DNA from: an uncultured Verrucomicrobiales bacterium
GTDB taxonomy: Bacteria; Verrucomicrobiota; Verrucomicrobiia; Verrucomicrobiales; Akkermansiaceae
Reading direction: 5' to 3'
DNA length: 33,805 nucleotides
Assembly (NCBI GenBank): GCA_937969495.1
Contig: CALBVY010000053.1
Location: 1 to 33,805 of the forward strand
Every line of letters starts with the position of its first letter. Within the stretch, counting starts at the first letter, position 1. Below are positions 26,708 to 33,805 of the stretch, one piece after another. The notes below the pieces were generated by a model. It did not search any database and was not told the DNA's origin. It was given only the letters and a program-made list of their open reading frames with translations. The position numbers and the translations under genes are program-made.

Positions 26708-28717
26708 ATGGCGCGTGAATACCAGATAGCATCAGGAAAGCAGAGTAAGGGTAGCTCCGGCATTGATTACGCCGCAGAACTGAATGAACAGCAGTATGCT
26801 GCCGTGGCATCACAGCCTGGGCCAGCACTCGTCATTGCTGGGGCCGGCTCTGGAAAAACACGGACCCTGACCCACCGCGTGGCTTATTTATTAGATCAAG
26901 GTGTTGATCCGGGTAATATCTTACTACTTACTTTTACTAATAAAGCGGCGCGTGAAATGTTAGATCGGGTGCAGCAGCTTATCCCCAATGACATCAGAGC
27001 GCTCTGGAGTGGCACCTTTCACTCTGTGGGAAATAGAATACTCCGCCGGCACGCAGATGAGTTAGGTTTTACAAAGTCCTTTTCCATCATGGATCGCGAT
27101 GACCAGAAGTCCTTACTTAATGAGGTGGTCAAAGGCTGTAATATTAATACGGGTGGAAGACGTTTTCCCAAAGCAGATTTATTAGCCTCTATCTTTAGTT
27201 TAGTAGAAAACACAGGTGAAACACTCAAAGAGGTGATTGAATTACGCTACTCTCACCTTGAGGAATGGCTGGATGATATTGATCGAGTTTGTAAAGGCTA
27301 CCGTAAGAAAAAGCTGAAGACCAACTCCATGGACTTCGATGATTTACTCGTCCTGACATTGAAACTTCTGCAAGAGCATCAGGATCTACGGCGGCTCTAT
27401 CAAAAAAGATTCCGGCATATTTTGGTGGATGAGTACCAAGATACCAATAAAGTGCAGTGTGACCTAATTGATCTACTGGTAGGAGAAAATCAATACCTCA
27501 TGGTAGTAGGGGATGATGCCCAGTCCATTTACTCATGGCGCGGTGCTGATATGTCGAACATTCTGGATTTTCATGAGAAGTATCCTGATGCTGAGGTTTT
27601 TAAAATTGAAACCAACTATCGCTCGGTGCCGGAGGTGTTAGATCTTTCGAATGCAGCCATTCGGCCCAATCGCCAGCAGTATACCAAGGAGCTGCGCGCT
27701 GTCCGTGAACAAGGGATGACGCCCGCTTTAGTACCGCTGGATGATCCGTCGTTACAGGCGGAATTCGTTGGTGAGCGTATTGAGGATTTGATCGGTGATG
27801 GGATAGATGCGGAAGAAATAGCAGTGCTGTATCGGGCTCACTATCAGAGTATGGAGATTCAAATGGAGATGACACGGCGAGGTCTCCCATTTCAGATTAC
27901 GAGTGGTTTGAGGTTTTTTGAGCAATCGCACATCAAGGATATATCAGCGATGATTCGCTTTGTGGTGAATGGCCGTGATGAAGTGAGCTTTAAGCGTATG
28001 ACCTTACTATTGCCTGGCATTGGTGCTAAGACAGCGGATAATCTCTGGGTGGCATGGACGAACTCCGCTGCTGGTAAGAGTGTGGAGGTGCCGGAGTCAT
28101 TTTCTGAAACTCTGCTGACCTTCAAAGTGCCAGCTAAAGCGAAAGATACCTGGGAACAGCTCTGTCATACACTTGATGAGCTTGCTCCCGGAGGAGTTTT
28201 TGAGCGGCCATCGAATATGATTTTTAGTATTCTTGAAGGGATCTATCAGGAATACATGAGTGTGAGTTTTGATAATCATGAGCACCGAAGAAATGATATT
28301 GAGCAGCTGATGCAATACGGTGAAAGCTACGAGGATGTACTCGAGTTTCTTGCTCAACTATCTCTCATGTCTTCCATTGATGGTGACCCTAGTAAAAAAG
28401 AAAAAAAAGAAGAGGGTGTGACTCTTTCCTCAATTCACCAAGCCAAGGGGCTGGAGTGGAAAGTGGTCTTTCTCGTCTGGCTTGCCGATGGTATGTTCCC
28501 TAATGGCCGAATTCTAGAAGCTGGTGATGAAGGTATGTTGGAAGAGGAACGTAGGCTATTCTACGTGGCTGTTACCCGTGCCAAGGATCAGCTCTACCTC
28601 ACTTATCCTATGACAAATCCGAAGAGCTACACTGGAGATTACATGACACGCCCCTCACGCTTTCTCGATGCCATCCCTACAGAAATGACCGAGGAGTGGA
28701 AGGTGAGTGCATGGTAG
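26708..28717 (+). CDS. UvrD/PcrA-family DNA helicase
   Basis: This 669-residue superfamily 1A ATPase unwinds DNA 3'-5' in repair and replication restart. All motifs are present: Walker A AGAGSGKT (residues 44-51), Ia TFTNKAAREM, II LVDEYQDTN, III VVGDDAQSIYSWRGAD, IV ETNYRSVPEV, V SSIHQAKGLEWKVVFLV and VI EEERRLFYVAVTRAKDQLYL. It is shorter than UvrD/PcrA (about 720 residues) and lacks an obvious C-terminal Tudor-like tail. It may therefore be a Rep/PcrA-type variant, and I give no firm symbol. The Q-motif region LNEQQYAAV begins near residue 25, after a non-conserved leader, so the start at 26708 is plausible. Confidence 0.93.
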   Translation: MAREYQIASGKQSKGSSGIDYAAELNEQQYAAVASQPGPALVIAGAGSGKTRTLTHRVAYLLDQGVDPGNILLLTFTNKAAREMLDRVQQLIPNDIRALWSGTFHSVGNRILRRHADELGFTKSFSIMDRDDQKSLLNEVVKGCNINTGGRRFPKADLLASIFSLVENTGETLKEVIELRYSHLEEWLDDIDRVCKGYRKKKLKTNSMDFDDLLVLTLKLLQEHQDLRRLYQKRFRHILVDEYQDTNKVQCDLIDLLVGENQYLMVVGDDAQSIYSWRGADMSNILDFHEKYPDAEVFKIETNYRSVPEVLDLSNAAIRPNRQQYTKELRAVREQGMTPALVPLDDPSLQAEFVGERIEDLIGDGIDAEEIAVLYRAHYQSMEIQMEMTRRGLPFQITSGLRFFEQSHIKDISAMIRFVVNGRDEVSFKRMTLLLPGIGAKTADNLWVAWTNSAAGKSVEVPESFSETLLTFKVPAKAKDTWEQLCHTLDELAPGGVFERPSNMIFSILEGIYQEYMSVSFDNHEHRRNDIEQLMQYGESYEDVLEFLAQLSLMSSIDGDPSKKEKKEEGVTLSSIHQAKGLEWKVVFLVWLADGMFPNGRILEAGDEGMLEEERRLFYVAVTRAKDQLYLTYPMTNPKSYTGDYMTRPSRFLDAIPTEMTEEWKVSAW

Positions 28718-32155: not shown

Positions 32156-33631
32156 ATGATAACCAAATCAATAATCGTCGTCACGCTAGCAAAGCCACTT
32201 TTCTCAGCCATATTCGCTTGTTTACTAACGCAAACGTGTGTGGCACAAAAATTTAAGAAATCTAAGGCGGCCACTTTGTCAGAAGCTCATGATGGAAGTT
32301 TAGCCGTGGACCTCAAGATCCTGAACCAGTTCCAAGAACATCCTAAAGAGCTCAATGATTTCTACATCGAGGCGAGAGATGCTTTGTTAGGAGGGGAGAT
32401 AGATCGCCACTTACCTAATGTTTGTAAAAAGTATGGGGTGAAAACAATTGGTAAAAGCATGCTCGGTAATCTCACCGATAAGAGCGTCACTATCAGAGTG
32501 CAAACTCCTGAAGCCGCTACCCTCAACGTCAAGGTCATGGCCAAGGGTAAAGAAAAAACTTTTTCAAGCACAGAGCCTAACACTATATCCTTTATTCAAT
32601 GCGATAGCCTCGCCGCGAATACTTCATACACTTACATCGTTACCAATACGGAGAACGAAGAACTTGCCAAAGGAGCATTTACCACCCCTCCCAAAGCAGG
32701 CGCTAAGATTCCTTATAAAATAGCCGTCGGCGCAGATTTTCATAAAATAGGTATTCATCGCCCTGAGCTACTACGCCTTGTCGAGAAACGTAACAATATC
32801 TCCATGATGTTATTAGGTGATCTTGCCGTCGATGGTAGACGCACAGTGACATTAAGGAATATCGATTACTTGCTACGTGATGTCTCACCAGTCTGGCAGC
32901 AGTTTGCCGCTAATGTGCCTACTTACACTAGTTGGGATGATCACGATTACTACGGGAATGATACCAGTGGGCAATATTTTCAAAAAAATAAAGATGAACT
33001 TATCCCCGTGGAGAGCTTCCGTTCTAACTGGAAACGGATGTGGAATAATCCAGAAAAAGACATCGAGCGCAAAGGCATCTACTTCCAGACCGTGATCGGT
33101 GACGCCCACATCATCATGCTTGATACCAGATCATGCCGTGTGAATGAGGAACGAGGGCAGCGCCATTGCTTTCTTGGTAAAGAACAAACAGAATGGCTGA
33201 AAAAGACACTGAAGAGCTCCACTTCACCCTTTGTTTTGATCAGTGGCGGCACGATGTGGACAGATTACATCTCCAATGGCAAAGACAGCTGGGGGAAATG
33301 GGATAAATCTGGCCGTGAGGAGCTGTTGACATTTTTTGATACCATTGAGGACAAAAAAATCCTGTTGTTTTCAGGTGATAGACACGGCACCCACGCCTTT
33401 AAAATCAAACGACCTAACGGAAAAGAATACATTGAATTTGGTGTAGGCTGCATGGGTGGTGTCCCCGGTGGAGGTAGAGCAAAAGATAAATCCATGCAGA
33501 TTTTTGCATACCCTGGTTTTAAAACATGGGCATACGGAGAGCTTGAGTTTACCTACCCTAACGGATCTCCCAAAGTCACCTTTAAGCTGATTAATCCAAA
33601 AGGGGAAATTCTAGAGACAGTAGAACTTTAG
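32156..33631 (+). CDS. Secreted PhoD-like phosphatase/phosphodiesterase
   Basis: This 491-residue protein has an N-terminal Sec signal (LFSAIFACLLTQTCVAQ) and a beta-sandwich domain (about residues 95-180) like the N-terminal domain of PhoD. The metallophosphatase domain shows VGADFHKIG, MMLLGDLAVD, SWDDHDYYGND, IIMLDTRSCR and LLFSGDRHGTHAF, corresponding to the metal-binding D/H blocks of the PhoD family. It probably hydrolyses phosphate esters outside the cytoplasm. The first metal block is atypical, and no twin-arginine motif is visible, whereas PhoD is normally a Tat substrate. The gene stands alone; the CRISPR-like repeat begins 20 bases after its stop codon. Confidence 0.88.
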   Translation: MITKSIIVVTLAKPLFSAIFACLLTQTCVAQKFKKSKAATLSEAHDGSLAVDLKILNQFQEHPKELNDFYIEARDALLGGEIDRHLPNVCKKYGVKTIGKSMLGNLTDKSVTIRVQTPEAATLNVKVMAKGKEKTFSSTEPNTISFIQCDSLAANTSYTYIVTNTENEELAKGAFTTPPKAGAKIPYKIAVGADFHKIGIHRPELLRLVEKRNNISMMLLGDLAVDGRRTVTLRNIDYLLRDVSPVWQQFAANVPTYTSWDDHDYYGNDTSGQYFQKNKDELIPVESFRSNWKRMWNNPEKDIERKGIYFQTVIGDAHIIMLDTRSCRVNEERGQRHCFLGKEQTEWLKKTLKSSTSPFVLISGGTMWTDYISNGKDSWGKWDKSGREELLTFFDTIEDKKILLFSGDRHGTHAFKIKRPNGKEYIEFGVGCMGGVPGGGRAKDKSMQIFAYPGFKTWAYGELEFTYPNGSPKVTFKLINPKGEILETVEL

Positions 33632-33651
33632 AAAAATTAAGTATATTCGTC

Positions 33652-33682
33652 GTTTCAATCCGCGCCCCCGTGAAGGGGCGAT
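33652..33682 (-). CRISPR. Single orphan CRISPR repeat of type I-C form
   Basis: On the minus strand, 31 bases end in the GGATTGAAAC typical of type I-C repeats and contain the inverted pair CGCCCC and GGGGCG around a short loop. On the plus strand the start reads GTTTCAATCCGCGCCCCCGT. In one frame the repeat translates as FNPRPREG, and in another as VSIRAPVKGR, peptides familiar from mis-annotated type I-C arrays. No second copy lies within 60-80 bases on either side, so this is one isolated unit rather than an array. No cas gene is in the window. Confidence 0.75.
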
Positions 33683-33805
33683 GGTGCATGGCGTGAGATT
33701 GGCAGAGGTCACCATCCAATGCGATGGCTACACCTGTTACCAAACCCTCATAAAAACCTACGAGGGGATAGAGTTAGGAGCCTGCCTCGCGCACATCCGC
33801 AGGAA
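33681..33805 (+). pseudogene. IS66-family transposase fragment (cut by window end)
   Basis: The frame through the window end encodes VTIQCDGYTCYQTL, followed by LGACLAHIRR. This matches the core of IS66 TnpC transposases, which carry a DGY-x-x-Y segment and a C-W-A-H-x-R-R segment. About 40 residues are visible and the frame is open at the window edge. The N-terminal two thirds of TnpC is missing upstream, where the CRISPR-like repeat and the phosphatase gene lie instead, so this is a truncated copy. The ATG at 33681 is merely the first in-frame one and lies inside the repeat. No terminal inverted repeat is seen. Confidence 0.65.

Follow-up and report, generated by a model that had tools for sequence, protein, structure and literature searches.

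A solitary type I-C-like CRISPR repeat beside a truncated IS66 transposase gene in a Verrucomicrobiales genome, probably the relic of a lost array

The window, i.e., the whole stretch of 33,805 nucleotides that was analysed, is a complete contig (C53) of the draft genome of an uncultured Verrucomicrobiales bacterium (2.47 Mb, 98 contigs, 96% complete; ‘G000’ in our sample). Where scanned, its content is chromosomal housekeeping: rplS, a UvrD-type helicase, RecQ, purA, carA and pgi. The UvrD-type helicase gene (26708-28717) scored 331 bits against GajB defence models and probably encodes an ordinary helicase. Near the right end of the contig lies a gene for a PhoD-like phosphatase (32156-33631, plus strand) with an apparently intact 3' end; its product aligns through its last residue to a homologue in a congener (G013) at 60% identity. 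It is followed by an AT-rich gap of 20 nt (33632-33651) and by a lone type I-C-like CRISPR repeat (33652-33682, minus strand), which is convergent with the phosphatase gene, and nothing repeat-like was seen farther left. On the other side of the repeat are a 28-nt stretch (33683-33710, minus strand), possibly the remainder of a spacer, and a fragment from the interior of a transposase gene of the IS66 family (33711-33805, plus strand). The repeat is thus intergenic, between the phosphatase gene and a broken IS66 transposase gene. The fragment matches the Pfam domain DDE_Tnp_IS66 (33702-33803; 28.6 bits with a cut-off of 23.1; domain positions 126-158 of 284). Its N-terminal/5' part is missing: it begins mid-gene, ~28 nt past the repeat, and runs off the contig end. 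No other mobile sequence was seen next to the repeat. Contig C8 (14086-14516) also ends in IS66, a frame-broken transposase remnant that is a different copy from the one in the window. As the window is the whole contig, the sequence to the right of the repeat is known for 123 bases only. A first-pass annotation, made from the letters of the window, had placed a 31-base repeat 20 bases past the phosphatase stop codon, and this position is correct (TAG at 33629-33631). It missed the truncated IS66 gene 28 bases past the repeat, and has to be corrected in that the window is a complete contig.

Read on the minus strand, the repeat is 5'-ATCGCCCCTTCACGGGGGCGCGGATTGAAAC-3' (31 nt). This is its functional orientation, with the ATTGAAAC handle at the 3' end. 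Folding gave a hairpin with a 7-bp stem (-12.8 kcal/mol), which together with the 3' end conforms to the structure of a CRISPR repeat, and both sequence and hairpin are fully preserved. The array repeat of Planctomycetaceae HKST-UBA60 is identical to it, base for base, and those of Puniceicoccaceae LCM1.Bin39 and Verrucomicrobiae DG1235 show one difference, G for the first A. The sequence, exact or with this substitution, is also present in a Phycisphaeraceae array. Spacers in the matching arrays are 31-35 nt long, except for one odd unit in DG1235, and the sequence is thus the direct repeat of arrays with spacers of that length. The assignment to type I-C is based partly on the repeat type, which we take to be I-C, and also on a congener (G008) in which a closely similar 33-nt repeat adjoins cas8c. 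Among 387 genomes sampled from the host's order, the repeat was found at up to three mismatches in nine. In six of the nine, multiple copies are spaced as in an array, and the true lone cases are the host and the congener G011. The ninth, G304, looked like another singleton but was rejected, since it has an ordinary array whose repeat is a sequence variant.

No second copy accompanies the repeat. With up to three mismatches allowed, the 31-mer occurs once in the window (against 0 in 100 shuffles); with up to one allowed, its 18-nt core occurs once in the 2.47-Mb genome. Genome-wide, a covariance model of I-C repeats matched only the lone repeat (56.1 bits, E = 1.5e-11). Neither flank has anything repeat-like one spacer length away (best identities 10/31 and 12/31; p = 0.81 and 0.58), and neither the window nor the genome shows the spacer-separated repeats, at least two in number, of a functional array. 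A degenerate second repeat was also considered, and none was detected at spacer distance within the window. On contig C95, 25 nt within a helicase gene match weakly, which was attributed to chance. 

A search of the host genome (draft, 96% complete) for three cas families, Csd1/Cas8c, Cas7 and Cas1, turned up none of them. The first-pass annotation had read the 31-mer as a true CRISPR repeat, to be given up if it matched no known repeat, and the exact match to array repeats bears this out. It had also reported no second repeat at spacer distance, in agreement with the flank identities given above, and had proposed searching the genome for the 31-mer and for cas genes: the lone repeat proved to be the only copy in the draft genome, and Cas8c and Cas7, like Cas1, are absent from the assembly.

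Two congeners are informative in this respect. G008 has Cas8c, Cas7 and Cas1, an array of seven 33-nt repeats, and additional open frames arranged as they would be in a complete I-C locus. This locus (C7:7253-15769) appears to be complete, and its 33-nt repeat has a longer stem. In G011, Cas8c, Cas7 and Cas1 were likewise not found, and a vestigial I-C array of two repeats with one 34-nt spacer is present (C28:1047-1142). Its first repeat differs from the lone repeat at 2 of 31 bases; the second is degenerate and lies exactly 65 nt on, with 23/31 identity, a value reached in 0 of 5000 shuffles. The lone repeat and this vestige indicate two cases within the genus in which repeats outlasted the loss of I-C. 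The seven bases just 5' of the repeat on the minus strand, ATGCACC (window 33683-33689), agree at 6 of 7 positions with ATACACC in G011 (1040-1046); the loci differ, and the agreement may be due to chance. A diverged Cas1 (C2:286319-287008, 102 bits) was observed in G013, with no Cas8c or Cas7. No array was seen downstream of the phosphatase gene of G013, which is the nearest homologue, and accordingly no intact ancestor of the locus was found.

We consider it probable that a type I-C array has been lost except for this repeat, its terminal (leader-distal) unit, which is now without function. This is suggested by the exact match to array repeats, the lack of cas8c, cas7 and cas1 in the assembly, and the truncated IS66 gene directly behind the repeat, and on the same evidence two readings offered by the first-pass annotation, the relic of a deleted array and the last repeat before a rearrangement, are favoured jointly. 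The original array would have occupied the sequence to the right, at higher coordinates, with transcription on the minus strand toward the 3' end of the phosphatase gene. We infer that a deletion or rearrangement linked to IS66, running from within the adjoining spacer to within the transposase gene, then removed the leader and the other repeats, and probably the cas genes too. The 28-nt stretch would be the truncated remainder of one spacer. It is slightly shorter than the intact spacers of related arrays (31-35 nt), which fits a cut inside the spacer; it has no exact match in viral contigs, and its phage matches are at chance level only. With no Cas8c or Cas7 found, and probably no Cas5, to process it, the repeat would now be functionless and is probably no longer transcribed. 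Since the assembled genome is without the tested CRISPR genes, the repeat most likely represents the inert fossil of a lost immune system, a product of ordinary decay, rather than a device still in use. Leader-distal repeats are often degenerate, and the perfect state of this one counts against a leader-distal origin. Moreover, the flank is known for 123 nt only, and a draft of 98 contigs and 96% completeness could miss a contig with cas genes. Nothing specific on decayed single repeats was found in the literature.

Such a missed contig would mean that the I-C array and its cas genes are still in the genome, in unassembled or unbinned contigs, with the repeat as the array edge and the contig end as a break or misjoin. 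It is true that the contig stops 123 nt past the repeat, and that C53 and C8 both end in IS66, as contigs typically do where an assembly breaks at a multi-copy element. However, three cas families are missing from a 96% complete assembly, and past the repeat the contig continues into IS66 instead of a further repeat, both of which make loss in assembly less likely. The best other match of the junction in the assembly is only 45 nt at 84%, too weak to cause a misjoin. Overall, we regard a retained array as unlikely. The alternative of a chance hairpin, or of a stretch of IS66 coding sequence that resembles a repeat, could draw on a 60-codon frame that stays open through the repeat into the transposase. 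It has practically no chance of being correct, as the 31-mer is identical to real array repeats, and the peptide FNPRPREGA read in that frame is also encoded in the I-C repeats of the compared arrays. That the repeat forms part of the IS66 coding sequence was rejected, since IS66 homology begins ~28 nt away.

Solitary repeat units are known from phages and plasmids as RNA anti-CRISPRs (Racr), and a type I-C example sits 11 nt downstream of acrIC5 (PMC10651486). With this precedent, and with its sequence and hairpin fully preserved, the present repeat might act as a Racr or as another kind of crRNA mimic, binding to Cas proteins of type I-C. The first-pass annotation had entertained a repeat mimic, and we found no support for it. 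The repeat is lone and intergenic like a Racr, but it is not located on a virus, prophage or plasmid, its neighbours being rplS, the UvrD-type helicase gene, purA, pgi and similar genes, and no host CRISPR system of matching subtype is present: with no I-C effector found, there is nothing cognate to act on. In addition, no match to the sigma-70 promoter consensus was seen in 33400-33805, the repeat, on the minus strand, runs antisense to its neighbouring gene, in contrast to the arrangement in the acrIC5-racr operon, and the 31-mer has no exact match in viral contigs. Such a role is therefore very unlikely. It is extremely unlikely that selection has kept the repeat, in a host that has no I-C system itself, as a chromosomal mimic RNA disarming the I-C systems of incoming elements; were this true, the relic in G011 would count as another case. 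Finding one solitary repeat in a draft genome should not be taken as evidence for an RNA anti-CRISPR.

Compared with known systems, the repeat shares its 31-nt sequence, its hairpin and the ATTGAAAC end with the arrays of DG1235, LCM1.Bin39 and HKST-UBA60. In contrast to these, it is a single copy with no spacer-repeat periodicity, in a genome without cas8c, cas7 or cas1. It aligns across the full Rfam model CRISPR-DR9 (RF01322), including the ATTGAAAC end (24.3 bits, E = 0.0021), with a score under the gathering threshold of 45 and a shorter stem. Like the solitary repeat units described as RNA anti-CRISPRs (PMC10651486), it is lone and intergenic with an intact hairpin; unlike them, it is off any phage or plasmid, has no promoter match and no cognate I-C system, and lies beside a truncated transposase gene. 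The G011 vestige likewise occurs in a genome without the tested cas genes and has a repeat differing at 2 of 31 positions, but it has kept its spacer and a second, degenerate repeat, at another locus with other neighbour genes. One genus would thus present the end stage of CRISPR loss, with a complete locus in G008, a two-repeat vestige in G011, and a single repeat by a broken IS66 in G000.
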